From: Frigidibacter sp. ROC022
GTDB lineage: Bacteria; Pseudomonadota; Alphaproteobacteria; Rhodobacterales; Rhodobacteraceae
Reading direction: 5' to 3'
Assembly (NCBI RefSeq): GCF_024723735.1
Contig: NZ_JANQDU010000003.1
Location: 1-64,000 of the forward strand
DNA length: 64,000 bases
Shown in pieces: positions 29,913 to 47,311 of the stretch. The position numbers were made by a program, and so were the translations under genes. Positions within the stretch are counted from its first letter, which is position 1. Each line of letters starts with the position of its first letter. The notes below the pieces were generated by a model that saw only the letters and a program-made list of their open reading frames with translations, ran no database searches and was not told where the DNA came from.

Positions 29913-30371
29913 TCAGGTCAGCCGTGCCAGCAGGGCCAGCAGCCGGGCTTGTTCCGAGCGGTTGAGCGGCGCCAGGGTGCGGGCCGAGACTTCCAGCGCT
30001 TGGGCCTTCGTGGCGTCGAAGACCTCGGCGCCCTTTTCCGACAGCCGCACCGTCAGCCGGCGCCGGTCGTCGGGGTCGGCGGCGCTGGTCACCAGGCCCT
30101 GCGTCCGCAGCCGGTCGACCACGCCCTTGATCGTCGCGGCATCCATCGCCGTCTCGCGCCCCAGCCGGTTCTGCGACATCGGTCCCAGCTCGGCCAGCCG
30201 CGCCAGGGCGGCGAATTGCGTGGTGGTCAGCCCGGGGATCAAGGCGGCGAAGATCGACAGGTGCCGTTGCGTGGCGCGGCGCAGCAGATAGCCGATCTGC
30301 GCATCCAGCACATAGGCGGGGCGCGTGGCAGGGTCTTTCGGCAGGTCGAGTGGTTCGTCGGTATCGTCCAC
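29913..30371 (-). CDS. MarR-family transcriptional regulator
   Basis: A 152-aa winged-helix regulator. The core (LTTTQFAALARLAELGPMSQ...DAATIKGVVDRLRTQGLV, then DPDDRRRLTVRLSEKG wing) is typical MarR. The GTG at 30371 is chosen because it gives the normal length; a GGAGG lies about 13 nt upstream, a little far. The gene is convergent with the LacI gene and divergent from the molybdenum hydroxylase array, which it probably controls. Confidence 0.85.
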   Translation of the reverse strand: MDDTDEPLDLPKDPATRPAYVLDAQIGYLLRRATQRHLSIFAALIPGLTTTQFAALARLAELGPMSQNRLGRETAMDAATIKGVVDRLRTQGLVTSAADPDDRRRLTVRLSEKGAEVFDATKAQALEVSARTLAPLNRSEQARLLALLARLT

Positions 30372-30513: not shown

Positions 30514-31359
30514 ATGCTGGACTTCAGCCGTCCTACGGCGTTGCCCGAAGCCCTGGCCCTGCTGGCCGAACACCGGCCGCTGATCCTGGCCGGCGGCACC
30601 GATCTGTTCCCCGCGACCGAGCGGGCGGGGTTGTCGGGCCGCGTGCTCTCGATCGACCGGATCGCCGGGCTTTGCGGCATCACCGAAACCGACGCGGGCC
30701 TGAGGATCGGCGCGGCGACGCCCTGGGCCGAGATCGCCCGGCATCCCGGCCCGCCCGGCTGGGCGGCGCTGGCCGAGGCGGCGGTCGAGGTCGGCGGCCG
30801 CCAGATTCAGAGCCGGGGCACCATCGGCGGCAATCTCTGCAATGCCTCGCCTGCGGCTGACGGGGTGCCGCCCCTGCTGGCCCTGGAGGCAGAGGTCGAA
30901 CTGGCTTCGGCGCAGGCCACCCGGCGGCTGCCCCTGGCCGAATTCCTGACCGGCCCGCGCCGCACCGCCCTGCAGCCGGGCGAGCTGATGACCGCCATCC
31001 ACCTGCCCGCCGACGCCCTGCGGGACCGCAGCCGGTTCCTGAAACTGGGTGCCCGCTCGCATCTGGTGATCTCGATCGCGATGGTCGCGGTGCGGGTCCG
31101 GGTCGGGGCCGGGCGGATCGCCGAGGCGGCGCTGGCGGTCGGCGCCTGCGGCCCGGTGGCGGCAAGGCTGCCGGAGGTCGAGGCGGCGCTGATCGGCGCG
31201 TCACCCGCCGAGGCACCCGACCGGATCGACCCTGCCACGGTGGCCGCGGCGCTGGCGCCGCTCGACGACATCCGCGCCACGGCCGCCTATCGCGGCGATG
31301 CCGCCGCGGTGCTCTTGCGCCGCGCTCTGGCCGATCTTCCGGACGAGGGGACGACATGA
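30514..31359 (+). CDS. Molybdenum hydroxylase, FAD-binding subunit (CoxM type)
   Basis: A 281-aa FAD-binding subunit of the xanthine dehydrogenase/CO dehydrogenase family. FAD-pyrophosphate motifs are LAGGTDLFP (near residue 27) and TIGGNLCNASPAAD (near 103). It passes electrons from the 2Fe-2S clusters of its partner to the final acceptor. It overlaps the next gene by 4 bp. First gene of the plus-strand array. Confidence 0.9.
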   Translation: MLDFSRPTALPEALALLAEHRPLILAGGTDLFPATERAGLSGRVLSIDRIAGLCGITETDAGLRIGAATPWAEIARHPGPPGWAALAEAAVEVGGRQIQSRGTIGGNLCNASPAADGVPPLLALEAEVELASAQATRRLPLAEFLTGPRRTALQPGELMTAIHLPADALRDRSRFLKLGARSHLVISIAMVAVRVRVGAGRIAEAALAVGACGPVAARLPEVEAALIGASPAEAPDRIDPATVAAALAPLDDIRATAAYRGDAAAVLLRRALADLPDEGTT

Positions 31360-34091
31360 AGGATGCCGCCGCGCCGAGCCTGGCCTTCACCCTGAACGGT
31401 CAGCCCGTCAGCTTCGACGCCGATCCGCGCCGCCGGCTGTCGGACCTCTTGCGCGAAAGCGGCGCCTCGCGCGGGACCAAGGTCGGCTGCGACGCCGGCG
31501 ATTGCGGCGCCTGCACGGTGCTGGTGGACGGCGCCCCGGTCTGCGCCTGCCTGACCGCCTGCGGCCAGGTCGAAGGGGCCGAGGTGCTGACCGTCGAGGG
31601 GCTGGCCGAGGCGGGCCGGCTCAGCCGGTTGCAATCCGCCTTTCTGCGTCATGGCGCGGCGCAATGCGGCATCTGCACGCCGGGGATGCTGGTCGCGGCC
31701 TCTGCGCTGCTGGCAGATGTGCCGCGCCCCAGCGAGGCGCAGGCGCAGGCGGCCCTGGGCGGCGTGCTCTGCCGCTGCACGGGTTATCGCAAGATCATCG
31801 CGGCGGTCTGCGATGCATGGCGCGAGGACGTGGCCGACCCGGCGCCGGAGCCCGGCGCGGCGGTCGGCGCCCGGCTGCGGCGGCTCGACGGGCCGGACAA
31901 GGTGACCGGGGCCGAGCGGTTCGGCGCCGACGACTGGCCCGAATCTGCGCTGCTTCTCAAGGCGGTGCGCAGCCCGCATCCTCATGCCCGGTTCCGCTTT
32001 GGCGATCTGGCGGAATTCGCGTCGCGGCCCGGCGTGGCGGTGGTGCTGACCGCCGCCGATGTTCCGGGCCGCAACCGGTTCGGCGTCATCCCGCCCTTTG
32101 CCGACCAGCCGGCACTGGCCGAAAGCCCGGCCCGGTTCCGGGGCGAGGCCGTGGCGCTGGTCGGGTTCGAGCCGGGCGCCGATCCGGACCTCACCGGGTT
32201 TCCGATCAGCTGGGAGGCGCTGCCCGATCTCTCCGACCCGGTCGCGGCGCAGGCCGAGGATGCACCGCTGCTTCACCACGACCGGCCCGGCAACCGGATG
32301 ATCCGGGGCTACACGCGGCGTGGCGATGCGCGGGCGGCGCTGGCCGATTCGGCCTTCAGCGTGGAAGGCTGTTTCGAGACTCCCTTCATCGAGCACGCCT
32401 ATATCGAGCCCGAGGCCGGATCGGCCTGGCTCGACGGCGATACGCTGGTGATCCGGGCCTGCACCCAGGCGCCGGTGATGGACCGCGACGATTGCGCCCT
32501 GGTGCTGGGTCTGCCGCCCGAGCGGGTGCGGATTCTGCCCACCGGGGTCGGCGGCGGCTTCGGCTCGAAGCTCGATCTCTCGGTGCAGCCGCTGCTCGGG
32601 CTGGCTGTGCTGAAGACCGGGCGGCCGGTGCGGATGGTCTATTCGCGGCGCGAGAGCCTGCAGGCATCGACCAAGCGCCACCCGTCGCGGATCACCGCGC
32701 GGATCGGCTGCGACGCCGAGGGCCATGTCACCGCGATGCAGTTTCACGGCATCTTCGACACCGGCGCCTATGCCAGCTGGGGACCGACGGTGGCGAACCG
32801 GGTGCCGGTCCATGCCTCGGGGCCCTACCGGACGCCGAACATCGAGGTCGAGGCCTGGGCAGTGCACACCAACGGCCCGGTCGCCGGCGCGTTCCGCGGC
32901 TTCGGCGTGCCGCAGGCGGCGATCGCGCAGGAACTGCTCTATGACCGGCTGGCCGATGCGGCGGGGCTGGACCGGCTGGAGTTCCGGCTGCGCAATGCCT
33001 TCCGCGACGGGGACACGACCGGATCCGGACAGGTGCTGGCCGCGACCGGAATCCATGACTGCCTGTCGGCATTGCGCGAACCCTGGACGAAGGCGCTGGC
33101 CGATGCGGCGCGGGCCAATGCGGCGGACGGCGGCGCGGCGCTGCGCGGCGTCGGCGTGGCCTCCTGCTGGTATGGCTGCGGCAATACCGCCTTGCCGAAC
33201 CCGTCGACGATCCGGGTCGGGCTGACGGCGGCGGGGGAGCTGGTGCTGCATCAGGGCGCCACCGACATCGGCCAGGGTGCGAACACCGTCATCACCCAGA
33301 TCTGCGCCGATGCGCTGGGGCTGCCGGTCTCGGACTTCCGGCGGATCGGACCCGACACGGCGCGGACTCCGGATGCCGGCAAGACCTCGGCCTCGCGGCA
33401 GACCTATGTCACCGGCCGCGCGGCGGCGGCGGCGGGGGCGGCGCTGCGCCGGGAGGTGTTGCGGCTGGCCAATGCCGGGGACGGGGCGCGGTTGCGGCTG
33501 GAGGATGGGGCGCTGATCGTCGAGGACGGCGCGGTGCGGCGGATCGAGCTGGCGGCGCTGCCCGAGGATGCGCGCGGCTACGCGCTGTCGGCGGAGGAAA
33601 GCTACGACCCGCCGACGCAGCCGCTGGACGCCGACGGGCAGGGGGTTCCCTATGCGGTCTACGGCTATGGCGCGCAGATGGTCGAGCTGGAGGTCGATCC
33701 GGCGCTGGGCAAGGTCCGGCTGCTGAACATCGTCGCGGCGCATGACCTGGGCCGGGCGATCAACCCGCTGCTGGCCGAGGGCCAGATCGAGGGCGGGATC
33801 GCGCAGGGCATCGGGCTGGCGATGATGGAGGAGTATCGCCCGGGGCGGACCGAGAACCTGCACGATTACCTGATCCCGACGATCGGCGACGTGCCGCCGG
33901 TGCGTTCGATCCTGATCGAGAAGCCGGACCCGGAGGGCCCTTTCGGAGCGCGGGGGCTGGGCGAGCATGTGCTGATCCCGACCGCCCCGGCGATCCTGAA
34001 CGCGATCCGGCACGCCTCGGGGGCCGAGCTGACCCGGCTGCCGGCGCTGCCGCATCGGGTGCTGGCGGCGCTGCGGAGGGCCGGAAAATGA
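31356..34091 (+). CDS. Molybdenum hydroxylase, fused 2Fe-2S and molybdopterin subunits
   Basis: A 911-aa natural fusion. Residues about 10-90 are a plant-type 2Fe-2S domain (CDAGDCGACTVLVDG), about 90-160 the second 2Fe-2S domain (CGICTPGM...CRCTGY), and about 180-911 the molybdopterin-binding large subunit, with GGFGSK, GAFRGFG and the catalytic-Glu motif GARGLGEH near the C-terminus. These enzymes insert water-derived oxygen beside a ring nitrogen or at an aldehyde. With the FAD subunit it forms a complete XDH-type enzyme from two polypeptides. No CoxF/XdhC-type Mo-sulfuration gene is nearby. The substrate is inferred to be an N-heterocycle from the downstream genes. Confidence 0.9.
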   Translation: MKDAAAPSLAFTLNGQPVSFDADPRRRLSDLLRESGASRGTKVGCDAGDCGACTVLVDGAPVCACLTACGQVEGAEVLTVEGLAEAGRLSRLQSAFLRHGAAQCGICTPGMLVAASALLADVPRPSEAQAQAALGGVLCRCTGYRKIIAAVCDAWREDVADPAPEPGAAVGARLRRLDGPDKVTGAERFGADDWPESALLLKAVRSPHPHARFRFGDLAEFASRPGVAVVLTAADVPGRNRFGVIPPFADQPALAESPARFRGEAVALVGFEPGADPDLTGFPISWEALPDLSDPVAAQAEDAPLLHHDRPGNRMIRGYTRRGDARAALADSAFSVEGCFETPFIEHAYIEPEAGSAWLDGDTLVIRACTQAPVMDRDDCALVLGLPPERVRILPTGVGGGFGSKLDLSVQPLLGLAVLKTGRPVRMVYSRRESLQASTKRHPSRITARIGCDAEGHVTAMQFHGIFDTGAYASWGPTVANRVPVHASGPYRTPNIEVEAWAVHTNGPVAGAFRGFGVPQAAIAQELLYDRLADAAGLDRLEFRLRNAFRDGDTTGSGQVLAATGIHDCLSALREPWTKALADAARANAADGGAALRGVGVASCWYGCGNTALPNPSTIRVGLTAAGELVLHQGATDIGQGANTVITQICADALGLPVSDFRRIGPDTARTPDAGKTSASRQTYVTGRAAAAAGAALRREVLRLANAGDGARLRLEDGALIVEDGAVRRIELAALPEDARGYALSAEESYDPPTQPLDADGQGVPYAVYGYGAQMVELEVDPALGKVRLLNIVAAHDLGRAINPLLAEGQIEGGIAQGIGLAMMEEYRPGRTENLHDYLIPTIGDVPPVRSILIEKPDPEGPFGARGLGEHVLIPTAPAILNAIRHASGAELTRLPALPHRVLAALRRAGK

Positions 34092-34329
34092 GCCGTTCAG
34101 CGGGTGTCCCCATGGGGACGGGGGGTCAAGTATTTGACCGGAAAAGAAAATCCATGGGGACGCCCGGCTTGGTTAACGAATTGTTCAGCACGGGCCGCCG
34201 CAGGCCGCGCCTGCGCCGTCCCGCGCGGGGGGCGCTGCCCCCCGCGACCCCCCGGGATATTTCCGAGGTAAAGCCGGGCCGCCGGGATGCGGGGGCGGCG
34301 TCCCGCGCCGGTGCGATGCGGGGGCGGCG
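34092..34329. other. Intergenic region with palindrome and repeat hairpin
   Basis: This 238-bp spacer holds no gene. It contains a 14-bp perfect palindrome (34106-34119) whose right half recurs at 34152-34161, and a strong hairpin followed by GGGATATTT (34224-34265). It separates the hydroxylase genes from the Fe-S/UPF0280/AA_synth genes. Confidence 0.6.
34224..34265 (+). repeat. Rhodobacteral-type hairpin repeat, copy A
   Basis: A 10-bp GC stem (34224-34233 with 34237-34246) and 3-nt loop is followed by ..CCCCGGGATATTTC. Similar hairpin or '..GGAGTATTT' sequences occur at 40063-40087 and 45553-45590, in the same orientation, just upstream of the next gene. Confidence 0.65.
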
Positions 34330-35766
34330 ATGAGCGAGAAAATCCGCTGCGATGCCTGCCCGATCATGTGCTATATCGCGCCGGGGCAGAGCGGCGCCTG
34401 CGACCGCTATGCCAACGAGGCGGGGCGGATCGTGCGCACCGATCCGGTGCTGATGCTGTCGCGCAGCCTGGAGGCGGGCGGCGCGGTGGTGCCCTTTGCC
34501 AGCGCCGACTGGCAGGACGGCATGTTGCCGGCGGATGCCTTCGTGACCGGGATCGGCGCCGGCACCACCTATCCCGACTACAAGCCGGCGCCCTTCATCG
34601 TGTCGTCGCAGGTCGCGGGCGCCGACATGGTCACGGTGGTGACCGAGGCGATCTTTTCCTATTGCGGGGTCAAGGTGAAGATCGACACCGACCGGCATCT
34701 CGGGCCCGAGGGCGCGGTGGTCCGGGCCGGCGGCGAGGCGGTGGGCCATGTCACCACCGCCGAATACGGCAGCCAGATGATGAGCCTTGGCGGGGTGTCG
34801 CATCTGACCGGGCATGGCAAGGCCGAGGGGCGGGTGACCTGCGCGACGCTGCTGGCGCTGTGCAACGGCGAGGCGGTGGAGCTGGAGATCGAGGGCGGCT
34901 CCGGCGTGGTGGTGCAGGCCGGCCGGCCGCCGGTGGTGGACGGGGTTCGGGAACGGCGGATGCGGGTCGGCTGCGGCAGCGCCACCATCGGCATGTTCGC
35001 CAGCCAGTGGCGCGGGCTGGTCGACGAGGTGGTGGTGGTGGACGATCACATCACCGGCGTGGTCAGCGAGCACCAGGCCGGCAAGGTGCTGGGCTGGGAG
35101 CCGACGGGAATCCGGATCCTCGGCCACCGCTCGACCCCGGGGCGGTATTTCCGGGTCTCGGAACCCGGGCTGGGCTGGGGCGGCACCCGGCTGACCGATC
35201 CGCTGCAGATGCTGGGGCCGTGGAACCCGAAGAAGGGCGCGCGACCGGGGCTGCGGCTGCTGATGGTCTCCACCACCGGCGAGGATCACGCCTATTACGA
35301 GCTCGACGCCGACCTGGTGCCGCAGCCGCGGCCGATGCCGGAGCAGCTGCGCGAGAGCGTCGGGATCATCGCCGAGAACTGCGAGCCGTCGCTGTGCTCG
35401 GTGCTCTTCGTCGGCGGCGCCGGCGGCTCGCTGCGGGCCGGGGTGACGCGCAACCCGGTGCGGCTGACCCGCTCGGTCCAGAGCCGCGAGACGCGGCTGA
35501 CCTCGGGCGGGGCCGAGGTCTATGTCTGGCCCGGCGGCGGCATCACCTTCATGGTCGATGTGCTGGACCTGCCGGAGGGCGCCTTCGGCTATGTGCCGAC
35601 CCCGGCGCTGGTGGCGCCGCTGGAGTTCACCCTGCCGCGGGCCGCCTATCTGGCGCTGGGCGGGCATGCCGAGGCGGTGCGCTCGGTGGAGGAGGTGACC
35701 CGGGACGGGGGCGAATATGCGACCGGGGCGCAGCTGGCGCGCTGGCCCGGGGCGGACCCGGAATGA
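34330..35766 (+). CDS. 6-hydroxynicotinate-reductase-like iron-sulfur protein
   Basis: A 478-aa protein that starts with a short Cys cluster (CDACPIMC...GACDRY), as expected for an Fe-S cluster site. I recall close relatives being annotated as 6-hydroxynicotinate reductase, the ferredoxin-dependent enzyme of anaerobic nicotinate breakdown. Further Cys residues lie at FSYCGVK, TCATLLALC, GCGSA and NCEPSLC. No signal peptide or membrane segment is seen. It overlaps the UPF0280 gene by 4 bp and is probably co-translated with it. The reductase role is known only for distant anaerobic examples; here the substrate and electron donor are unproven. Confidence 0.65.
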   Translation: MSEKIRCDACPIMCYIAPGQSGACDRYANEAGRIVRTDPVLMLSRSLEAGGAVVPFASADWQDGMLPADAFVTGIGAGTTYPDYKPAPFIVSSQVAGADMVTVVTEAIFSYCGVKVKIDTDRHLGPEGAVVRAGGEAVGHVTTAEYGSQMMSLGGVSHLTGHGKAEGRVTCATLLALCNGEAVELEIEGGSGVVVQAGRPPVVDGVRERRMRVGCGSATIGMFASQWRGLVDEVVVVDDHITGVVSEHQAGKVLGWEPTGIRILGHRSTPGRYFRVSEPGLGWGGTRLTDPLQMLGPWNPKKGARPGLRLLMVSTTGEDHAYYELDADLVPQPRPMPEQLRESVGIIAENCEPSLCSVLFVGGAGGSLRAGVTRNPVRLTRSVQSRETRLTSGGAEVYVWPGGGITFMVDVLDLPEGAFGYVPTPALVAPLEFTLPRAAYLALGGHAEAVRSVEEVTRDGGEYATGAQLARWPGADPE

Positions 35767-36623
35767 GCGTGCAGGCGGCGATCCTGCCGGGCGGGCGGCT
35801 GCATCTGCAGCAGGGGCCGATCGACCTGGTGATCGAGGCGATGCCGCTGCGGGCCGGGCCGGCCGGGGCGGCGGCGGTCCGGGCGGCCTATGACCGGGCG
35901 CGGGACCGGTTCGACGGGTTGCTGCAGGGGCTGGCGGCGGAACTTCCGGCGCTGCGCAGCCCCGAGCCGCTGCCGCTGCAGGGGCCGGTGGCGCGGGTCA
36001 TGGGCCGGGCGGTGGCGCCCTATCGGGCCGAGCGGGTGACTCCGATGGCCGCGGTCGCCGGGGCGGTGGCCGAGGCGGTGCTGGCGGCGCTGGTCGGCGA
36101 TGGCGCCGGGCTGGGCCGGGCCTATGTGAACAACGGCGGCGACATCGCGCTGTGGCTGGGCGCGGGGCAGCGGCTGACCGCGGCGCTGGCGGGCAGCGCC
36201 GACCGGGTGACGGTCCGGCAGGCCGATGCGGTGCGGGGGATCGCCACTTCGGGCTGGCGCGGGCGGAGTTTCTCGCTGGGGATCGCGGATGCGGTGACGG
36301 TGCTGGCCGGGACCGCGGCGGCGGCGGATGTGGCGGCGACGATGATCGGCAACCGGGTCGATCTGCCGGGGCATCCGGCGATCCGCCGGCGGCCGGCCTG
36401 CACGCTGCAATGCGACAGCGATCTGGGGGCGCGGATGGTGACGGTGGCGGTCGGGCCGCTGCAGCGGGCCGAGGCCGAGGAGGCGCTGGCGGCGGGGGCC
36501 GGCTATGCCGAGGCGCTGTGCCGGCGCGGGCTGATTGCCGGGGCGGCGCTGATGGTGCAGGGTCGGCGGCGGATCGTCGGGCAGGCTCTGCTGACGAGGG
36601 AACCGGAGGAGACATATGGCTGA
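35763..36623 (+). CDS. UPF0280 family, ApbE-like protein
   Basis: A 286-aa UPF0280 protein. NNGGDIALWL (near residue 125) and GIATSGWRGRSFSLGIADAVTVLAG (split here as GIATSG...SFSLGIADAVTV) match the ApbE fold, whose canonical members attach FMN covalently to Thr/Ser of target proteins. Whether UPF0280 proteins do so is not established. Four-bp overlap with the Fe-S gene and 8-bp overlap with the AA_synth gene show tight coupling, so flavin loading of a neighbouring redox protein is a reasonable guess. Confidence 0.75.
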   Translation: MSVQAAILPGGRLHLQQGPIDLVIEAMPLRAGPAGAAAVRAAYDRARDRFDGLLQGLAAELPALRSPEPLPLQGPVARVMGRAVAPYRAERVTPMAAVAGAVAEAVLAALVGDGAGLGRAYVNNGGDIALWLGAGQRLTAALAGSADRVTVRQADAVRGIATSGWRGRSFSLGIADAVTVLAGTAAAADVAATMIGNRVDLPGHPAIRRRPACTLQCDSDLGARMVTVAVGPLQRAEAEEALAAGAGYAEALCRRGLIAGAALMVQGRRRIVGQALLTREPEETYG

Positions 36624-37197
36624 GTTCAGGCTGCGGAAGACGACGCTGGTGATCGAGGAGATCGCGCATGACGGCGGCCCGGCGCCGGAGAAGCCGCGGC
36701 TGCGCGGGGCGATCCTGGCGCTGGTGCAGAACCCCTTTGCCGGGCGCCATGTCGCGGATCTGCAGGGCGCGATGGATGACCTGAAGCCGCTGGGGCTGCA
36801 GATGAGCGCAAGGCTGATCGCGGCGCTGGGCGGCAAGGAGGCGGTCGACGGCTATGGCAAGGGCGCCATCGTCGGCAGCGCCGGCGAGATCGAGCATGGC
36901 GCGATGTGGCATGTGCCGGGCGGCTATTCGATGCGCGAGCATCTGGGCGAAAGCCGGGCGATCGTGCCCTCGGCGATGAAGGTGGGCGGGTTCGGCGACC
37001 AGCTGGACGTGCCGCTGGGCCATGTCAATGCGGCCTATGTGCGGAGCCATTTCGACGCGATGACGGTGGGGATGCCGGACGGGCCGCGGCCGGACGAGAT
37101 CGTCTTCGTGCTGGCGATGGCCTGCGGCGGCCGGGTGCACAGCCGGATGGGCGGGCTGGAGGCCTGGCAGGTCAAGGGCGAGGACGGGTTGCGGTGA
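36616..37197 (+). CDS. AA_synth (DUF1185) family protein
   Basis: A 193-aa member of Pfam AA_synth (PF06684); structures of family members show a variant of the Bacillus chorismate-mutase fold. Recognisable stretches are QNPFAGRHV, GKGAIVGSAGEIEHGAMWH and RPDEIVFVLAMACGGRVHSR. The biochemical role is unknown; its constant company in catabolic clusters suggests amidohydrolase- or isomerase-like chemistry on a small ring-derived acid. A clear ribosome-binding site (GGAGGA) precedes the ATG. Confidence 0.8.
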   Translation: MAEFRLRKTTLVIEEIAHDGGPAPEKPRLRGAILALVQNPFAGRHVADLQGAMDDLKPLGLQMSARLIAALGGKEAVDGYGKGAIVGSAGEIEHGAMWHVPGGYSMREHLGESRAIVPSAMKVGGFGDQLDVPLGHVNAAYVRSHFDAMTVGMPDGPRPDEIVFVLAMACGGRVHSRMGGLEAWQVKGEDGLR

Positions 37198-38531
37198 CCG
37201 GCCCGGCCCGGACGCCCTGGCTGACGGCGGCGCTGGCCCTGGCGCTGGCGGGGCCGGCCCATGCCCATGCCTCGGAGCGGATGGTGATCCTGACCCTGCC
37301 GACCGGGCCTTTCCTGGTCGGGGCCGGGCTGGCGGTGTTGCTGGGCGTGGTCGCCGGCAGCCTGGGCGGGCGCCTGCCGGGCTTTGGCGCCCGGCGGCTG
37401 GCGGACTGGCCGGGCGAGGGCGTGGCGCTGAGCTGGCTGGGTTTCGCGGCGCTGCTGGGGCTGCTGGCCGCGGGCACCTGGGGCGATCGCGATCCGCTGG
37501 AGAACCCCCTGCCGCTGGTGCTGTGGCTGGGAATCTGGGTGGCGCTGGTGCTGGCGAGCTCGGTGCTGGGCGATCTCTGGCGGCCGATCGCGCCCTGGCG
37601 CGGGCCGGTGCGGCTGGTGCGGCGGCTGCTGGGGCGCCGGGGCGGGATCGGGCTGTCGCGGTTGGGTCACTGGCCGGCGGTGCTCGGGCTGCTGGCGTTC
37701 TCCTGGTTCGAGAATGTCTCGCTGGCGCCGTCGGACCCCTGGGTGCTGGCGCGGGTGGCGGGGCTCTACTGGCTGACGATCTTCCTGCTGGCGGTGGCGG
37801 AGGGCGAGGACTGGCTGGACCGGGGCGAGGCGCTGACCGCGTCCTTCGCGCTGTTCGCCAGGGTGGCGCCGCTGTGGCGCGACCGCGAGGACGGGCGCTC
37901 GGTGCTGAAGATCGGGCTGCCGGGGGCGCAGATCGTCGCCATGCCGGTGCTGAGCGCCGGGGAGGTCGGGCTGGTGACGCTGCTGATCACCAGTGTCACC
38001 TTCGACGGGCTCAGCGAGAGCTTCTGGTGGCTGGGCCGGATCGGGATCAACCCGCTGGAGTTTCCCGGGCGTTCGGCGGTGATGGGCATCCACTCGCTGG
38101 GGCTGGTGGTGGCCTGGGGGCTGGTCACGGCCTCGATCCTGGGGGCGGTGGCACTGGGCGGCGCCGGCCGGACGGTGCTGCTGAGCTTCCTGCCGATCTC
38201 GGCGGGCTATCATGTCGCGCATTACCTGGTCGCGCTGCTGAGCCAGGGGCAATACGGGATCGCGGCGCTGAACGATCCGCTGGGCCGCGGCTGGGCGCTG
38301 CTGGGACTGCCGGACCACTGGGCCTCGTTCGGCTTCCTCACCGACCGGGGCTGGGTCTGGGCGATCTGGGGGACCCAGTTCACCCTGATCCTGGGCGCGC
38401 ATCTGCTGGCCGTGGTGCTGGCGCTGAAACTGGCCGGGCGGAAGCTGCGGGCGCATCTGCCGGTGACAGTGTTGATGATCGGCTATACGGTATTGGGGTT
38501 GTGGCTGCTTGCCACCCCGACGGCCGGGTGA
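37194..38531 (+). CDS. Polytopic membrane protein, function unknown
   Basis: A 445-aa protein with a signal-like start (ALALALAGPAHAHA) and about ten further hydrophobic segments. Motifs NPLPLVLWLGIWVALVLASS and GDLWRPIAPWRGP, followed by a GHWPAVLGLLAFSWFE region, remind me of proteins annotated as fenitrothion hydrolase (FedA-like), a membrane family of unclear natural role. It starts with GTG overlapping the AA_synth stop (GTGA), so it belongs to the same operon and may carry electrons or substrate for the pathway. It is not an ABC or MFS permease. Confidence 0.55.
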   Translation: MTGPARTPWLTAALALALAGPAHAHASERMVILTLPTGPFLVGAGLAVLLGVVAGSLGGRLPGFGARRLADWPGEGVALSWLGFAALLGLLAAGTWGDRDPLENPLPLVLWLGIWVALVLASSVLGDLWRPIAPWRGPVRLVRRLLGRRGGIGLSRLGHWPAVLGLLAFSWFENVSLAPSDPWVLARVAGLYWLTIFLLAVAEGEDWLDRGEALTASFALFARVAPLWRDREDGRSVLKIGLPGAQIVAMPVLSAGEVGLVTLLITSVTFDGLSESFWWLGRIGINPLEFPGRSAVMGIHSLGLVVAWGLVTASILGAVALGGAGRTVLLSFLPISAGYHVAHYLVALLSQGQYGIAALNDPLGRGWALLGLPDHWASFGFLTDRGWVWAIWGTQFTLILGAHLLAVVLALKLAGRKLRAHLPVTVLMIGYTVLGLWLLATPTAG

Positions 38532-38643: not shown

Positions 38644-39927
38644 ATGACCAAGCTTCTCGGGCTTCAACCGTCGCGGCGCTCGGTTCTGGGCGGCCTCGCC
38701 GCCAGCGCGGCCATGACCGGACTGGCCACAAGATTTGCACAGGCGCAGTCCTCGGCGCCGATCAAGCTGGGCTTCCAGCTGCACCGGACCGGCATCGGCG
38801 CCGCCTATGGCCGCTGGTACGAACGCACGGCCATGGCCGCGCTGGAGGTGGTCAACGCCGGCGGCGGGATCAACGGGCGGCCGGTGGAAATCCTGTTCGA
38901 GGATGACGGCACCGACCCGGCCCGCGGCGCGCAGGCGATCGACAAGCTGGTCAGCCAGGATGGCTGCGAACTGGTCTTCGGGCCGCTGTTCAGCCATGTC
39001 GTCGTCGGTTCGGCGCCGCGTGCGGGCGAGCTGAAGGTGCCCTATCTGGTCTGTTCCGAAGGCCACCATGTCGCCAGCGGCATTCTCAACCGCTGGACCC
39101 TGCAACCGGGCATCACCGATGTGAAGAGCCAGGTCCTGGCGATGGCGCCCTGGGTTTCCGACACGCTGGGCAAGAAGGTCACCATGATCTATCCGGACTA
39201 CGCCTTCGGCTATGATCACCGCGACAATTTCGTGCCGGCGATGGCGGCGGCGGGCGGCGAGGTGGTGGCGCAGATCGCGATCCCGCCGACCGAGACCTCC
39301 TTCACCCGCTATTTCCCGCAGATCCCGCGCGACACCGACGTGATCTATCACGTCATGGTCGGCCCGGCGGTCCTGACCTTCGTCAAGGAACTGGGCGAGT
39401 TCTACGGCTCGGGCGCGCGGCCCGAGATCTTCGGCTTCATCGACTCGCTGGAAGCCGTCGACATGGCCTCGCCGGGGCTGGAATTCCTGGAGGGCACCCA
39501 TTTCTGGGAAGGCGACTGCCGCTATCTGCAGGCCGATGCCACCGAGCACACCAAGGCCTATCGCGCCGCGGTGGGGATCGACGACAACGGCGCCTCGATC
39601 ACGGATTCCAAGGAAGTCGCCACGGTGGCGCATATGTTCTCGGTCTGGGAGACGCTGTTCGTCATCAAGGCGGCGATGGAGACGGTGGACTATCAGGGCC
39701 CGGCCGACCGGCAGGCGCTGGTCGAGGCGGTCGAGGCGATGACGATCATGGCGGAATCGGCCGAGCATCCGCAGGGTGACAAGGTGTTCAACGGCAAGAC
39801 CCACCAGGTCTTCGGGCATCAGAACATCTCGAAGGTCGAGGGTGGCCGGATGAACCGGGTCTACCGGACCGAGATCGCGCTCGGGGATTACCCGGACGAG
39901 GTCGATTACACCACGATGTCGTTCTGA
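38644..39927 (+). CDS. ABC importer substrate-binding protein (branched-chain amino acid/amide type)
   Basis: A 427-aa periplasmic binding protein of the LivK/AmiC-UrtA class with a Tat leader (SRRSVLGGLAASAAMTGL, cleavage near AQA-Q). The two-lobed body shows INGRPVEILFEDDGTDPARG and LVFGPLFSHV. The twin-arginine leader and divergence from LivK suggest amides, urea or heterocycles rather than leucine. It is followed by a strong hairpin before the permease genes. Confidence 0.85.
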   Translation: MTKLLGLQPSRRSVLGGLAASAAMTGLATRFAQAQSSAPIKLGFQLHRTGIGAAYGRWYERTAMAALEVVNAGGGINGRPVEILFEDDGTDPARGAQAIDKLVSQDGCELVFGPLFSHVVVGSAPRAGELKVPYLVCSEGHHVASGILNRWTLQPGITDVKSQVLAMAPWVSDTLGKKVTMIYPDYAFGYDHRDNFVPAMAAAGGEVVAQIAIPPTETSFTRYFPQIPRDTDVIYHVMVGPAVLTFVKELGEFYGSGARPEIFGFIDSLEAVDMASPGLEFLEGTHFWEGDCRYLQADATEHTKAYRAAVGIDDNGASITDSKEVATVAHMFSVWETLFVIKAAMETVDYQGPADRQALVEAVEAMTIMAESAEHPQGDKVFNGKTHQVFGHQNISKVEGGRMNRVYRTEIALGDYPDEVDYTTMSF

Positions 39928-39946
39928 TCGCAGTGGCGGAAGGGTC

Positions 39947-39964
39947 GGGGGCCTGCGGGCCCCC
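39947..39964 (+). terminator. Intercistronic hairpin after the binding-protein gene
   Basis: A 7-bp GC stem (gggggcc / ggccccc) with loop tgcg begins 19 bp after the stop, followed by gtt rather than a T-run. It probably acts as a partial terminator or 3'-end stabiliser that raises binding-protein mRNA over permease mRNA. Confidence 0.5.
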
Positions 39965-40062
39965 GTTCGAGGGACCGGGCGCTTGTCTGAGCATAGCAGA
40001 ATGATCCGGCGCCCCGGCGGGCGGTGGCGCGGCCCGTCGGGCGTTGCGCGCGTTTCGGGCGC

Positions 40063-40087
40063 GGGAGCCTCCGGCGGGAGTATTTTT
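40063..40087 (+). repeat. Rhodobacteral-type repeat, copy C
   Basis: GGGAGCCTCC-GGC-GGGAGTATTTT: the stem part is shorter than in the other copies, but the GGGAGTATTT tail is shared. It lies about 50 bp before the permease GTG. Confidence 0.5.
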
Positions 40088-40134
40088 GCCCCGAAGATGG
40101 CGGGCGCGCGGCGCCTTGCCGGAGGGGGCGCGCG

Positions 40135-41016
40135 GTGAGTTTCGGACCCTATCTGCTGCTGGCGGTGCTGGAGGGGCTGGTCTCTGCGGCGGTGCTGGCG
40201 CTGACCGCGGTCGGGCTGGGCCTGGTCTTCGGCGTGATGCGGGTGGTCAATGTCGCGCATGGGGCCTTCTTCATGCTGGGCGCGGTGATCGCCTGGATGG
40301 TGGCCGATGCGCTGCCCGGGCCGCCGGCGCTGGGCTTTGCCGCGGCGCTGGTGGTGGCGCCGCTGGCGGTTGCGGCGCTGGCCGCGGCGGTGGATTTCGG
40401 GGTGCTGAAACGGCTCGGCTATGATCCCGACGCGACGATCGTGGCGACGATCGGGGTGCTCTACATCGTCGAGCAGGCGGCGCTGAGCCTGTTCGGCCCC
40501 GATGCCCGGCCGGTGCAGGCGCCGTTCAACCTGCGCCTGCAACTGCCCTGGTTCGGCTATTCCGGCTACAAGCTGGCGGTGGTGGCGGCGGCGGTCGTGG
40601 TGCTGCTGGCGGTCTGGCTGGTGCTGTCGCGGAGCCGCGCCGGGCTGGTGATGCGGGCGACCCAGATCGACGGCGAGACGGCGCGGGCCTTCGGGATCGA
40701 CACCGACCGGGTCTATGCCGGTGTCTTCGCGCTGGGCGCCGGGCTGGCGGCGCTGGCGGCGGTTCTGGTGGTGCCGATCCAGCAGGCCCATTACCTGATG
40801 GGCGGCGACCCGCTGCTGCTGAGTTTCATCGTGGTGATCATCGGCGGGCTCGGCAGCCTGCGCGGTACGGTGATCGCGGCGCTGCTGATCGGGGTCTCCG
40901 AGGGCGTGGTGTCGGTGTTCTTCTCGCCCACGCTGGCGAAGATCCTGGCGACGCTGCTGGTGGCGCTGGTGCTGGTGTTCCGGCCGCAGGGCCTGTTCGG
41001 GCGGCGTGCGGCATGA
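40135..41016 (+). CDS. ABC importer permease (LivH type)
   Basis: A 293-aa branched-chain-type permease with about eight hydrophobic segments and the LivH signature GLGLVFGVMRVVNVAHGAFFM near the N-terminus. I use the GTG at 40135 because GGAGGGGG lies 9 nt upstream; the frame open further upstream covers the repeat region. Four-bp overlap with the LivM-type gene. Confidence 0.87.
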   Translation: MSFGPYLLLAVLEGLVSAAVLALTAVGLGLVFGVMRVVNVAHGAFFMLGAVIAWMVADALPGPPALGFAAALVVAPLAVAALAAAVDFGVLKRLGYDPDATIVATIGVLYIVEQAALSLFGPDARPVQAPFNLRLQLPWFGYSGYKLAVVAAAVVVLLAVWLVLSRSRAGLVMRATQIDGETARAFGIDTDRVYAGVFALGAGLAALAAVLVVPIQQAHYLMGGDPLLLSFIVVIIGGLGSLRGTVIAALLIGVSEGVVSVFFSPTLAKILATLLVALVLVFRPQGLFGRRAA

Positions 41017-41957
41017 GCGATACCGGCCGCATCCTGTCGCTGCATCTGGCGGTTCTGGCGGCACTGCTGGGGCTGCATTTCGTGGCACCGCCCTATCACC
41101 ATGCCAATCTGGCGCGGGTGATGGTGCTGGCGGTCTATGCGATGGGCTACAACATCGCCTTCGGCTATACCGGGCTGCTGTCGCTGGGCCATGCCTTGTT
41201 CTTCGCGGCGGGGCTCTACGGCACCGGGCTGACGATCCAGCTGGCCGGCTGGCCGGCGGGGCCGGCGCTGATCACCGGGCTGCTGGCGGGCGCTGCGGTG
41301 GCCGGCGGGCTGGGGCTGCTGGCGCTGCGGACGGCCGGGGTCTCGTTCATGATCGTGACCCTGATGTTCGCCCAGGCGGGCTATCTGACGATCCTCTATT
41401 TCACCGGCTACACGCGGGGCGAGGAGGGCTTTGTCCTGCCTGCCGCGGCGCGGAGCATCGGCGGGCTCGACCCGACCGGGGAGGCGGCGCGCTATCTGCT
41501 GGCGCTGGCCCTGTTCGCGGTGGCGCTGGCGGTGAATCTGGGGCTGGTGCGCTCGGGCCTCGGTCGGGTCATGGTGGCGATCCGCGAGAACGAGGAACGG
41601 AGCCGGATGCTGGGCTACGACCCGTTCCGGGTGAAGCTGGCGGCGCTGGCGATCTCGGGCCTCTACGCGGGCGCGGCGGGGGCGGCCTGGGGCTGGCTGT
41701 TCGGCTATGTGGGGGCCGGTTTCGCGACGATCCAGTATTCGATCCTGCCGCTGCTCTACGTGCTGCTGGGCGGCGCCGGGACGGTTCTCGGGCCGTTCCT
41801 GGGGGCGCTGGCGATGTTCTATCTGATCGACATCGCCTCGGGGCTGACCGACGCCTATCTGATGGTGGTCGGGGTGGCGCTGGTGGTGCTGGTGCTGTTC
41901 GCGCCGAAGGGGATCCTGGGCAGCCTGCGCGAGAGGTGGTTGCGATGGCTGCCGTGA
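41013..41957 (+). CDS. ABC importer permease (LivM type)
   Basis: A 314-aa LivM-type permease with about nine hydrophobic segments and the family motif YNIAFGYTGLLSLGHALFFA near residue 45. It forms the channel with the LivH-type subunit. Its end overlaps the next gene by 13 bp. Confidence 0.87.
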   Translation: MSDTGRILSLHLAVLAALLGLHFVAPPYHHANLARVMVLAVYAMGYNIAFGYTGLLSLGHALFFAAGLYGTGLTIQLAGWPAGPALITGLLAGAAVAGGLGLLALRTAGVSFMIVTLMFAQAGYLTILYFTGYTRGEEGFVLPAAARSIGGLDPTGEAARYLLALALFAVALAVNLGLVRSGLGRVMVAIRENEERSRMLGYDPFRVKLAALAISGLYAGAAGAAWGWLFGYVGAGFATIQYSILPLLYVLLGGAGTVLGPFLGALAMFYLIDIASGLTDAYLMVVGVALVVLVLFAPKGILGSLRERWLRWLP

Positions 41958-42651
41958 CCTTGCTGGACGCGCGCGGCCTGGTGCGGCATTTCGACGGGCT
42001 GAAGGCGGTGGACGGGGTCGATTTCGACCTGGCGCCGGGCGAGGTGCATGCGCTGATCGGGCCGAACGGGGCCGGCAAGACGACCTTCGTCGGCCTGCTG
42101 TCGGGCCGGGTCGCGGCGCAGGCCGGGACGATCCGCTTTGCCGGCGAGGACATCACCCGGCTGCCGGCGCATCGCCGGGTGCGGCGCGGGATCGCCTATA
42201 CGTTCCAGATCACCTCGGTCTATGCCCGGCTGAGCCTGGCCGAGAATGTCGGCCTGGCGGTGCAGTCGCGCGGTGGCGACCGGCGCCGCGAGGTGCCCGA
42301 GGCGCTGGCGCGGGTCGGGCTGGAGGGCGAGGCCGGGACATTGGCGGGCAGGCTGAGCTATGGCCATCAGCGGCTGCTGGAAGTGGCCATGGGGCTGGCG
42401 CTGCATCCGCGGCTGCTGATCCTGGACGAGCCGACCCAGGGCCTGGCCGAAGGCGAGATCGCGGCCTTCAAGGAGCTGGTGGCGGGGCTGGCCCCGGCGA
42501 CGACGGTGCTTCTGATCGAGCACAACATGGATGTGGTGATGGACCTGGCGCAGCGGATCACGGTGCTGAACTTCGGCAAGGTGCTGGCCCGTGGCTCGCC
42601 GCAGGAAATCCGGGCCGACAGGGCGGTGCAGGCCGCCTATCTGGGGGACTG

Positions 42652-42652
<1 letters not shown>
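41945..42652 (+). CDS. ABC importer ATPase (LivG type)
   Basis: A 235-aa ATPase: Walker A GPNGAGKTT near residue 38, signature-like LSYGHQRLLEV near 139, Walker B LLILDEPTQGLA near 157, switch His IEHNMDVV near 195. The LSYGHQ form replaces LSGGQ, as in many LivG/UrtD proteins. Translation is coupled to the permease. Confidence 0.88.
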
Positions 42653-43347
<695 letters not shown>

Positions 43348-43348
43348 G

Positions 43349-43498
43349 ATGGGCCGGGTCGTCCAGTTTTCCGACCGCGGCGCTGCCGGATGCGGTGGCG
43401 GTCTCCGGCGGGGATATCTGGAAGGTGAAGCGGGATGCGGGCGCGCCGATGGCCGGGCGCGGGCCGGCGCGGCGACGGTTCGGGAGGGGCGCGGATGA
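43349..43498 (+). CDS. Possible 49-aa protein between livF-type and hyuA-type genes
   Basis: An ATG two bases after the livF-type stop opens a 49-codon frame rich in Gly and Arg whose TGA overlaps the hyuA-type ATG (ATGA). The position fits a coupled small gene, but the composition is also what random GC-rich DNA gives. Unrecognised. Confidence 0.2.
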   Translation: MGRVVQFSDRGAAGCGGGLRRGYLEGEAGCGRADGRARAGAATVREGRG

Positions 43499-45522
43499 CC
43501 GGGCGGGTTGCGGGGGTCGATGTCGGGGGCACCTTCACCGACCTGCTGGTGGTCGACAGTGCCGGCGGCGCGGTGCGGCTGGCCAAGGTGCCGACGACGC
43601 TGCCCAATCAGGCGGGCGGGGTGCTGGCGGCCTTCGAGGCGGCGGGCGAGGATCTGGCGGGCATCGACCTGATCGTGCATGGCACCACGACCACCACCAA
43701 CGCGGTGCTGGAGCGCAAGCTGGCGCGCTGCGGGCTGATCACCACCGAGGGCTTCCGCGACGTGCTGGAGCTGGGGCGGCGGACGAGGCCGCAGCCCTAT
43801 GGCATGACCGGCAGCTTCACCCCGGTGATCCCGCGCGATCTGCGGCTGGAGGTGCCCGAGCGGATGGATGCCGGGGGCCGGGTGCTCACGCCGCTGGACG
43901 AGGGAGCGGTGCGGGCGGCGGTGGCGCGGCTGCTGGAGGCGGGTTGCGAGGCGCTGGTGATCCATTTCCTGCATGCCTATGCCAATCCGGCGCATGAGCT
44001 GGCGGCGCTGGAGATCGCGCGGGAGCTCTGGCCCAACGGCCATATCACCGCCGGGCATCAGCTGCTGAGCGAGAGCCGCGAATTCGAGCGCGGGGTGACG
44101 GCGGCGGTCAATGCCTCGGTCCAGCCGCTGCTGGAACGCTATGTCGCGCGGCTGGCCGGGCAGCTGGCCGAGCGCGGCTATGCCCAGGACCTGCTGGTGA
44201 TGAACGGCAATGGCGGCATGGTTTCGGCCGACCGGGTGGCGCGCGAGGCGGTGAAATCGGTGATGTCGGGGCCGGCCTCGGGGGTGATGGCGGCGGTCGA
44301 GACCGGGCGCCGGGCCGGGCTGGGCAATCTGATCACCTATGACATGGGCGGCACCTCGACCGACGTGGCGTTGATCCGCGAGGGCCGGGCCCCGGTCTCG
44401 AACGAGATCGAGGTCGAATATGCGATGCCGATCCATGTGCCGATGGTCGATGTGCGGACCGTGGGCGCAGGCGGCGGCTCGATCGCCTGGGTCGATGCCG
44501 GCGGCATGTTGCGGGTCGGGCCGGAGAGCGCCGGAAGCGATCCGGGGCCGATCTGCTACGGGCGCGGCGGGACGCGGGTGACGATCTCGGACGCCAATCT
44601 GCTGCTCGGTCGGTTGCCGCCGGAGCGGTTCGGCGGCGGCATGCTGGAGCAGGTGCGGCAGGCCATGGCGGAGCAGATCGGCGGTCCGCTGGGGCTGGCG
44701 CCCGAGGCGGCGGCCGAGGCGGTGCTGCGGCTGGGCAACACCCATATGGCCGGGGCGATCCGGATGGTCTCGATCTCGATGGGCGCCGATCCGCGCGACT
44801 ATGCGCTGTTCGCCTTCGGCGGCGCCGGGCCGCTGCATGCCCGCGACCTGGCGGCGGAACTGGCGATTCCGCGGGTGCTGTTGCCGGCGCGGCCCGGGAT
44901 CACCAATGCGCTCGGCTGCGTGGTCGCCGATCTGCGGCATGACTTCGTGCGGACGCTGAACCGGCCGCTGGACAGCGTCGACATGGCGCTCGTGGCCGGG
45001 GTCATGGCGGAGCAGGAGGCGGAAGGGCGGCGGCTGATCGGCCGCGAGAAGGTCGCGGTGCCGGAGGTGACGGTCGAGTTCTCGGCGGACATGCAATTCG
45101 TCGGCCAGACCCATCTGCTGCGGGTGGCGCTGCCGGGCCGGGGCGTGACCCGCGACGAGATGCAGGCGCTGTTCGAGGCTGCCTATCATGCCCGGTTCCA
45201 CGTCAGCCTGCCGACGATCCGGGCCAATCTGGTGAACCTGAACTGTTCGGTGATCGGGCGCCGGGCGCCGCTGGACCTGGGGCTGCTGATCGAGGCCGCG
45301 GGCCGGCGCGACAGCCTGGAGGCGGCGCGGAGCGGACGCCGCCGGGTCTGGTTCGGCGGCTGGGTCGAGACCCCGGTCTACTGGCGCGACCACCTGCCCG
45401 CCGGGGCCGGGCTGACCGGGCCGGCGGTGATCGAGCAGATGGATTGCACCACGGTGATCGCGCCGGGGGACCGGGTGGCGCAGGACCCGGACGGCAATCT
45501 GATCGTCGAGGTGGCGCGGTGA
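43495..45522 (+). CDS. hyuA: Hydantoinase/oxoprolinase A subunit (HyuA type)
   Basis: A 675-aa ATP-dependent enzyme subunit of the N-methylhydantoinase/5-oxoprolinase/acetone carboxylase A superfamily. The ASKHA phosphate-binding loop VDVGGTFTDLLVVD is at residues 8-21, HGTTTTTNAVLERK near 61, and GGTSTDVALI and GAGGGSIAWVD later. With HyuB it hydrolyses a cyclic amide or imide bond at the cost of ATP. The ATG at 43495 is taken; an in-frame ATG 20 codons upstream is less likely. It is the natural ring-opening step of this array. Confidence 0.87.
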   Translation: MTGRVAGVDVGGTFTDLLVVDSAGGAVRLAKVPTTLPNQAGGVLAAFEAAGEDLAGIDLIVHGTTTTTNAVLERKLARCGLITTEGFRDVLELGRRTRPQPYGMTGSFTPVIPRDLRLEVPERMDAGGRVLTPLDEGAVRAAVARLLEAGCEALVIHFLHAYANPAHELAALEIARELWPNGHITAGHQLLSESREFERGVTAAVNASVQPLLERYVARLAGQLAERGYAQDLLVMNGNGGMVSADRVAREAVKSVMSGPASGVMAAVETGRRAGLGNLITYDMGGTSTDVALIREGRAPVSNEIEVEYAMPIHVPMVDVRTVGAGGGSIAWVDAGGMLRVGPESAGSDPGPICYGRGGTRVTISDANLLLGRLPPERFGGGMLEQVRQAMAEQIGGPLGLAPEAAAEAVLRLGNTHMAGAIRMVSISMGADPRDYALFAFGGAGPLHARDLAAELAIPRVLLPARPGITNALGCVVADLRHDFVRTLNRPLDSVDMALVAGVMAEQEAEGRRLIGREKVAVPEVTVEFSADMQFVGQTHLLRVALPGRGVTRDEMQALFEAAYHARFHVSLPTIRANLVNLNCSVIGRRAPLDLGLLIEAAGRRDSLEAARSGRRRVWFGGWVETPVYWRDHLPAGAGLTGPAVIEQMDCTTVIAPGDRVAQDPDGNLIVEVAR

Positions 45523-45610: not shown

Positions 45611-47311
45611 ATGAGCCTCGATCCGGTGACATTGGCGGTGATCCAGGCCGGGTTGCAGCAGGTCTGCGACGAGATGGATCTGACCTTCTCGCGGGCGGCC
45701 TTCTCGCCGGTGATCGCCGAGGCCGACGACCGCTCGGACGGGATCTACGGCGCCGAGGACGGGGCGCTGATCGCCCAGGGCGCGCGCGGGCTGCCGGTCT
45801 TTGTCGGGACGATGCAGTTCTCGACCCGCCATATCATCGAGCGGATCGCGCGGGGCGAGACAGGGGCGCCGGAGCCGGGCGACATCTATATCGTCAACGA
45901 TCCCTATCTGGGCGGGACCCATCTGATGGATGTGCGTTTCGCCACGCCGTTCTGGCGCGACGGGAAGATCTTCTGCTGGCTGTCGAACACCGGGCATTGG
46001 CCCGATACCGGGGGGGCGGTGCCGGGCGGGTTCTCGGCCAGCGCGATCTCGGCCGAACAGGAGGGGCTGCGGCTGCCGCCGGTGAAGCTGTTCAAGAAGG
46101 GCGTGCTGGACCCGGAGATCTACCAGATCATTGCCTCGAACATCCGGGTCGCCGAGCAGCGGATCGGCGATGTGCAGGCCCAGGCCTCGGCGCTTCTGGT
46201 CGGGGCCGAGCGGTTGCGGGTGCTGCTGGACCGTTACGGCGACGCCACGGTGGCCGAGGCGATCGCCGAGATGCGGGCGCTGGCGGCGCGGCAGATGCGG
46301 GCGGCGGTGGCGCTGATCGGGCCGGGGCCCTGGGTCTCGGAGGCGGTGGTGGATTCGGACGGGGTGGTGGATGCCCCGCTGGTGATCCGTCTGCAGCTGC
46401 GGCGCGAGGGCGAGGCGCTGGTCTTCGACTTCGCCGGCAGCAGCGCGCCCTGCGCCGGGCCGATGAACTCGGTCCGGGCGACGACGCTGTCCTCGGTCTA
46501 TCTGGCGATGCGGCATGTGTTTCCCGACGTGCCGCTGTCGGCGGGGGCCTTCGAGCCGCTGCGGGTGGTCGGGATCGAGGGAACCTTTCTGGACGCGCAA
46601 TATCCGCGCCCGGTGTCGGGCTGTGCCGCCGAGGTCAGCCAGCGGATCGCCGAGGCGGTCTTTGCGGCGCTGGTCCAGGCGCTGCCCGACCGGGTGACGG
46701 CGGCGCCGGCGGGGACCAGCGGCAATTTCGGACTGGGCGGGCATGACCCGGAACGCGGCCGCGACTACGTGATGTACCAGATTTCCGGCGGCGGCTATGG
46801 CGGTTCGGCGCAGGGCGACGGGCTGTCGAATGGCTGCTCGACGATCGGGATTTCCAAGGCCCCGCCGGTGGAGATCATGGAGCAGAATTTTCCGGTGCTC
46901 TACCGGCGCTATGCCCTGCACGAGGGGTCGGGCGGGGCCGGGGCGCAGCGCGGCGGCTTCGGGCTGGATTACGAGGTCGAGCTGCTGCGCGGCACGGCGC
47001 GGGCCAGTTTCGTGATGGATCACGGCCGGGTCGGGCCGCAGGGCGCCCTGGGCGGCGCGGCGGGCGGGGTGAACCGGGTCGAGGTGATCCGCGCCGACGG
47101 CAGCGTGACGGTGCCCGAGCATCTGTCGAAGGCGCAGGACATTCCGATGGCGCCGGGCGACCGGGTGCGGGTGCGCACCCCCGGCGGCGGCGGCTATGGC
47201 GATCCGGCGCAACGCGATCCCGCCGCGGTGGCCGAGGACGTGCGGCTGGGCCGCTATTCCGAGGCCCGGGCGCGGGCGCTGTTTCCGGGCTGGACAGGCG
47301 ATCCGGACTGA
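45611..47311 (+). CDS. hyuB: Hydantoinase/oxoprolinase B subunit (HyuB type)
   Basis: A 566-aa partner of HyuA. Family motifs are NDPYLGGTHLMDV near residue 97, FDFAGSSAPCAGPMNS near 275, and a C-terminal TPGGGGYGDP. It is the last recognisable enzyme of the array. The subunits are separate genes, as in N-methylhydantoinase, and are split by a repeat hairpin. Confidence 0.88.
   Translation: MSLDPVTLAVIQAGLQQVCDEMDLTFSRAAFSPVIAEADDRSDGIYGAEDGALIAQGARGLPVFVGTMQFSTRHIIERIARGETGAPEPGDIYIVNDPYLGGTHLMDVRFATPFWRDGKIFCWLSNTGHWPDTGGAVPGGFSASAISAEQEGLRLPPVKLFKKGVLDPEIYQIIASNIRVAEQRIGDVQAQASALLVGAERLRVLLDRYGDATVAEAIAEMRALAARQMRAAVALIGPGPWVSEAVVDSDGVVDAPLVIRLQLRREGEALVFDFAGSSAPCAGPMNSVRATTLSSVYLAMRHVFPDVPLSAGAFEPLRVVGIEGTFLDAQYPRPVSGCAAEVSQRIAEAVFAALVQALPDRVTAAPAGTSGNFGLGGHDPERGRDYVMYQISGGGYGGSAQGDGLSNGCSTIGISKAPPVEIMEQNFPVLYRRYALHEGSGGAGAQRGGFGLDYEVELLRGTARASFVMDHGRVGPQGALGGAAGGVNRVEVIRADGSVTVPEHLSKAQDIPMAPGDRVRVRTPGGGGYGDPAQRDPAAVAEDVRLGRYSEARARALFPGWTGDPD

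Follow-up and report, generated by a model that had tools for sequence, protein, structure and literature searches.

Strict linkage of a UPF0280 protein with an Hnr-family reductase in a nicotinate-type reductive gene cluster of Frigidibacter sp. ROC022

The nicotinate-type reductive catabolic cluster is already known in outline, a related cluster having been reported in 2012 (PMC3511419). Strain SG-6C carries such a cluster and degrades via the tetrahydro-oxonicotinate route, and its 6-hydroxynicotinate reductase (Hnr) shares 42% identity with the enzyme of E. barkeri. Alhapel et al. are said to have found in 2006 that E. barkeri Hnr contains a covalent flavin together with one [2Fe-2S] and two [4Fe-4S] clusters. 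The UPF0280 family (COG2122) is required for homocysteine synthesis in methanogens and sulfate reducers. Here we describe a locus in which Hnr and UPF0280 are encoded side by side, in a 64,000-nucleotide stretch of DNA (the window, whose numbering is used below) from the 4.4-megabase genome of Frigidibacter sp. ROC022. We read the locus as a nicotinate-type reductive catabolic cluster, with nicotinate as its likely substrate. Four genes are central to it:

34330..35766, + strand, hnr-like 6-hydroxynicotinate reductase of 478 amino acids (family annotation in public records, alignment)
35763..36623, + strand, UPF0280 / COG2122 / PRK04334.1-2 protein of 286 amino acids (NF003322 at 332 bits, fold, presence in the same genomes as Hnr)
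36616..37197, + strand, AA_synth protein (PF06684, DUF1185) of 193 amino acids (PF06684 at E 2e-65)
37194..38531, + strand, polytopic membrane protein with a signal-like N-terminus (GTG start, livK linkage)

A first-pass annotation of the window had described these genes as overlapping in series, and they do so by 4, 8 and 4 base pairs (bp): the end of hnr (35766) and the start of the UPF0280 gene (35763) share ATGA, the latter gene ends (36623) 8 bp into AA_synth (start 36616), and the end of AA_synth (37197) shares GTGA with the membrane gene, whose first usable start is the GTG at 37194, since position 37188 carries a GTT codon.

The central observation is a strict linkage between Hnr and UPF0280, which occur always and only together. 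Across 398 genomes sampled from the phylum Pseudomonadota, a strong Hnr match and a UPF0280 match above the cut-off are found in the identical 32 genomes and are adjacent there, and in a sample of 289 genomes of the class both are found in the identical 44, with the UPF0280 gene split across contig ends or placed on another contig in a few of them. The remaining UPF0280 matches are few, weak and below the cut-off. Two of 137 scored loci that seemed to be devoid of UPF0280 (L056 and L096) were checked and are contig breaks, one having the gene on a different contig and the other being truncated at a contig end. On plasmids, the sole UPF0280 without Hnr belongs to pBPS33-1, where an IS1071 insertion has left only the C-terminal end of Hnr. 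The mirror-tree comparison is weakly in favour of the pairing, with a correlation of 0.79 for Hnr and UPF0280 against 0.72 for Hnr and AA_synth. In a neighbourhood survey of the 80 nearest named loci, the order CoxM-CoxSL-Hnr-UPF0280-AA_synth, in which the first two genes encode a molybdenum (Mo) hydroxylase, repeats from locus to locus and is therefore not a matter of chance. In the literature searched we found no paper on UPF0280 by name, and the papers found on COG2122 concern only homocysteine synthesis, sulfur assimilation or gut surveys; as far as this literature shows, the exact pairing is new, as are an active site that is only in part that of ApbE and the exclusion of an obvious target motif and of a membrane electron route, which are described below. 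As a separate curiosity, plasmid pBPS33-1 carries four near-identical UPF0280-MarR-Rieske segments with IS1071 alongside.

The first gene of the run belongs to a family that public records name 6-hydroxynicotinate reductase, and its product is 59-80% identical to plasmid proteins annotated as Hnr; the nearest relatives are found in Rhodobacter-like bacteria (Frigidibacter, Tabrizicola, Rhodobacter). Nine cysteines (positions 7, 10, 14, 24, 112, 171, 178, 215 and 351) are invariant in an alignment of 52 sequences, in keeping with the several Fe-S clusters predicted for such an enzyme. No Pfam family is matched above its cut-off, no match to DUF39/HcyBio is found via Pfam, and no solved relative is detected by sequence or fold (no Protein Data Bank (PDB) match at E < 0.001). 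The structure model is only moderate, with a predicted local distance difference test (pLDDT) score of 74. Residues 113-149 (34666-34776) have a weak likeness to the C-terminal barrel of GCV_T/CAF17 (GCV_T_C), seen in 38 of 52 relatives with a best E of 2e-4. In one relative (positions 9823-11246 of locus L190) hnr is spread over two overlapping frames, either by frameshift or by sequencing error, next to an intact UPF0280 gene.

The UPF0280 protein passes the NF003322 cut-off of 290 bits, and no signal peptide is seen in it; all 52 relatives likewise match this model. Its AlphaFold model (pLDDT 95.1) finds in the PDB first 2o34, a Desulfovibrio member of the family, and then ApbE, FmnB and Ftp, in structures that include complexes with flavin adenine dinucleotide (FAD), AMP and ADP; Foldseek gives 4xgx, 7esc and 3pnd at a probability of about 1. 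On this model the protein can be assigned with confidence to the ApbE-superfamily fold, and a profile comparison with the three ApbEs of the same genome concurs (E 9e-5). The kept motifs are NGGD with N123/N124, ATSG with S163 followed by R168, and ADxxAT (the ADxxxT of ApbE) with D189 and T193. Counted on the alignment, S163 and D189 correspond to Ser241 and Asp285 of Vibrio cholerae ApbE, and T193 to the metal-site Thr of ApbE; S163, D189, T193 and N123/N124 are invariant in 52 sequences, so that the Ser and Asp of the ApbE triad and the Mg ligands are retained. The invariant R168 stands five residues past the Ser of TSG, as Arg262 does from Ser257 in FmnB (PMC8906456). Ser163 and Asp189 are 26 residues apart, as compared with 44 in V. 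cholerae ApbE. Of the three true ApbE genes of the genome (L001, L002 and L003), one lies beside an NqrF-like gene, one beside a gene for a flavodoxin/ferredoxin-reductase-type flavoprotein, and one is of NosX type, so that UPF0280 is present alongside normal ApbEs in the cell.

What, then, might UPF0280 do for its partner? We favour a role in maturation that is dedicated to Hnr, with UPF0280 probably attaching the flavin by a non-canonical route. Covalent flavinylation, which the first-pass annotation had raised, is a reasonable proposal because the two genes are strictly linked, because UPF0280 has an ApbE fold and part of the active site, and because the E. barkeri enzyme reportedly carries a covalent flavin. 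A number of observations weigh against this reading. The ApbE target motif D-x-x-[ST]-G-A-[ST] (PMC12052999) has no match in any cluster protein, in agreement with the first-pass annotation, which had seen none by eye. The nearest string in Hnr, GCGSAT, offers T219 as a candidate, which was rejected: this residue is Ala in 12 of 137 Hnr sequences, all of which keep UPF0280. The site, if a flavin is attached, would be another of the many invariant Hnr residues. The earlier description of UPF0280 as ApbE-like holds for the fold and for part of the active site, but Pfam ApbE (PF02424) gives no match at E up to 0.5, and the catalytic His is missing with the IDPxTG loop, an 18-residue gap in the profile comparison falling exactly at the HxIDPxTG segment. 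Also missing from the DLxAIAKG segment are the Lys of AIAKG and the Asp of DLxA; because of these losses we do not class UPF0280 as an ApbE. In V. cholerae ApbE the H257G substitution abolished flavin mononucleotide (FMN) transfer, though not FAD binding (PMC5655446). The first-pass annotation had held that its proposal would fall if UPF0280 had no FAD site; one half of that site, with the Ser, the Asp and the metal ligands, is kept, and the other half, with the His, the Lys and the Asp of DLxA, is gone. Finally, for the COG2122 proteins of homocysteine synthesis sulfur trafficking has been proposed and the homology to flavin-binding proteins questioned (PMC5764234).

The last point leads to a competing explanation, in which UPF0280 serves Hnr by trafficking sulfur or maturing its Fe-S clusters and resembles ApbE in fold only. 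In Desulfovibrio, COG2122 is required with DUF39 and a NIL/ferredoxin protein for homocysteine synthesis, with a persulfide role proposed (PMC5764234); MA1715 has been called a sulfur-trafficking protein (PMC12068725), and Hnr is itself a Cys-rich Fe-S enzyme. However, in the Hnr-linked subfamily no Cys is conserved, in contrast to the Methanococcus homologue with its group of Cys residues at the C-terminus (PMC9431491), and conservation is centred instead on the nucleotide and metal motifs of ApbE. Sulfur trafficking through a conserved Cys of UPF0280 was accordingly discarded for this subfamily, and the explanation as a whole appears doubtful to us, although it is the strongest of the competitors. 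Rather less probable still is that UPF0280 is a subunit or an electron-transfer partner of Hnr holding a flavin or nucleotide of its own: one-to-one co-occurrence and translational coupling would suit a complex equally well, but part of the flavin-contact residues of ApbE is gone. Moreover, purified E. barkeri Hnr is said to have been active as a single subunit that carried a flavin of its own.

The first-pass annotation had gone further and joined all four genes into a single redox module, raising the possibility of a membrane electron input in place of ferredoxin; on the full model, the membrane protein would feed quinol or respiratory electrons to Hnr. Within the Rhodobacter-like clade the membrane gene does overlap or closely trail AA_synth, and the protein, which matches no Pfam family, has a few invariant His residues inside its membrane segments (YHxAH). 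Its genomic company, however, is that of livK, the first gene of an importer operon: wherever livK is visible the membrane gene lies 69-321 bp upstream of it (28 of 29 matches; L041 ends before livK), and all 19 loci in which the 1.7 kilobases (kb) upstream of livK can be seen have the gene there. Its distance from AA_synth ranges from an overlap to about 14 kb, many clusters are devoid of it, and distant homologues occur on haloarchaeal and actinobacterial plasmids on which Hnr was not found. Because livK follows its gene immediately in all scorable loci, the membrane protein is best taken as the product of a transporter-operon gene; we rejected it as an electron donor of Hnr, and consider a four-gene module with membrane input highly improbable. 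The genes that do cluster are those for ferredoxin-NADP reductase: 13 of the 80 nearest named loci have one in the vicinity of Hnr, as do several further clusters, which fits a retained ferredoxin-type donor and speaks against a replacement of ferredoxin; the source genome has two such reductases elsewhere. It is more likely that the electrons of Hnr come via ferredoxin and ferredoxin-NADP reductase. Apart from these questions, a Haloferax plasmid encodes a remote homologue of the membrane protein (positions 3620-5020 of locus L179) beside a heavy-metal P-type ATPase gene and a HiPIP gene.

The wider neighbourhood supplies the remaining functions of the proposed pathway:

29913..30371, - strand, MarR-family regulator, NicR/BpsR-like (PDB matches 2nnn at 5e-37 and BpsR 6pcp at 1e-20)
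30514..31359, + strand, CoxM-type FAD subunit of a Mo hydroxylase (PF00941, PF03450)
31356..34091, + strand, CoxSL-type fused [2Fe-2S] and Mo-binding subunit, presumed ring hydroxylase (PF00111, PF01799, PF02738, PF20256)
38644..43347, + strand, livK-livH-livM-livG-livF ATP-binding cassette (ABC) importer (PF13458 for LivK; conserved block)
43495..45522, + strand, HyuA-type ATP-dependent (oxo)lactamase subunit, nearest NCBIfam model caprolactamase alpha (NF050156 at 484 bits, below the cut-off of 1000)
45611..47311, + strand, HyuB-type (oxo)lactamase subunit, nearest NCBIfam model caprolactamase beta (NF050157 at 289 bits, below the cut-off of 1000; PF02538 at E 2e-150)

Taken together, these genes allow a scheme in which the CoxM/CoxSL hydroxylase would produce 6-hydroxynicotinate, which Hnr, a putative flavoenzyme with several Fe-S clusters and with electrons supplied via ferredoxin and ferredoxin-NADP reductase, would reduce to 1,4,5,6-tetrahydro-6-oxonicotinate, and the ring would probably be opened by the ATP-dependent lactamase HyuAB in place of the enamidase. 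The cytosolic UPF0280 would bind a metal-nucleotide, probably FAD, through NGGD, TSG...R and ADxxAT, and most likely attach or insert the flavin of Hnr with neither a catalytic His nor a DxxSGAT target motif. The reading as a whole, that of an aerobic reductive nicotinate locus with UPF0280 as the dedicated maturation factor of Hnr and the membrane protein belonging to the transporter, has in our estimation an even chance of being right.

AA_synth possibly acts on the reduced ring or on its opening product. Its match to PF06684 (219.8 bits, as compared with a gathering score of 27) is unambiguous, and its solved relatives 3byq and 2qtp have no function attached. It is a frequent neighbour of the pair, not a universal one, L040, L053 and L090 being among the few loci in which none was found. 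Four loci (L172, L174, L184 and L185) have two tandem AA_synth genes adjoining UPF0280 instead of one. Between CoxSL and hnr the window has a gap of 238 bp, whereas in most relatives hnr follows CoxSL directly. Nested inverted repeats, GGGTGTCCCCATGG...CCATGGGGACGCCC around the palindrome GGTCAAGTATTTGACC, occupy 34105-34160; the pattern occurs at two sites only in the genome, with a fold z of -2.9, and is possibly an operator or an RNA hairpin. The same gap holds a GC-rich hairpin repeat (34228-34252), whose core GGGGGC-N-GCCCCC-N-ACCCCC occurs 16 times genome-wide, as compared with 0 for the reversed control.

The absolute link to Hnr, a family with a reported covalent flavin, provides UPF0280 with a defined and testable client. 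More speculatively, and with no great expectation of being right, we suggest that UPF0280 may represent a second class of flavin-attaching enzymes that does without the His, is cytosolic and acts at a non-canonical site on Fe-S reductases (Hnr and, by extension, the DUF39 homocysteine enzyme). Were this true, His-independent flavinylation would account at once for both COG2122 phenotypes, that of Hnr and that of DUF39 in methanogens and sulfate reducers, and attachment of flavin with neither the ApbE His nor the motif would constitute a new protein-modifying chemistry and reopen the question of how DUF39 enzymes work. Were it not true, the Hnr-UPF0280 pair would still be the simplest assay of COG2122 function.

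How does the locus compare with the systems described so far? With ApbE, Ftp and FmnB (PF02424) its UPF0280 shares the fold, the motifs, the Ser-Asp pair of the triad, the metal ligands and the Arg at the FmnB spacing, and differs from them in the losses described above, in the lack of a visible signal peptide and in a partner devoid of the target motif. The COG2122 proteins of homocysteine synthesis (MA1715 and DvMF_0044; structure 2o34) likewise belong to the UPF0280 family and are dedicated partners of a ferredoxin-supplied reductive enzyme, but they fall into other subfamilies (NF003321/3/4, as opposed to NF003322 here) and serve DUF39/HcyBio instead of Hnr, and the conserved Cys is absent here. 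Both cases would be accounted for if these proteins in general mature the cofactors of reductases fed by ferredoxin.

A close resemblance is also seen to the reductive nicotinate cluster itself, known from E. barkeri and in an Azorhizobium/Bradyrhizobium/SG-6C type; with the latter type the locus shares Hnr beside UPF0280 and AA_synth, an ABC importer, a NicR-like regulator and a Mo hydroxylase adjoining Hnr. The same Hnr-UPF0280-AA_synth core occurs in an alphaproteobacterium with a large genome (L183) and in non-alphaproteobacterial Pseudomonadota (L172, L184 and L185, including a Comamonadaceae plasmid), where it is joined to a [2Fe-2S] subunit and a cytochrome c-bearing Mo subunit, as in NicAB, and to an amidohydrolase, often with a ferredoxin-NADP reductase gene present. 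Our locus differs in having CoxM/CoxSL instead of NicAB with its cytochrome c, and HyuAB where others have the amidohydrolase. HyuA takes the place of the amidohydrolase in NicAB-type clusters, and HyuAB and the amidohydrolase were in no case found together among the surveyed loci, which suggests that they perform the same ring-opening step. The regulator, for its part, has 2nnn and then BpsR (6pcp) as its closest solved matches and keeps three of the four residues with which BpsR contacts 6-hydroxynicotinate (Tyr15, Arg26 and His32), His23 being replaced by Tyr.

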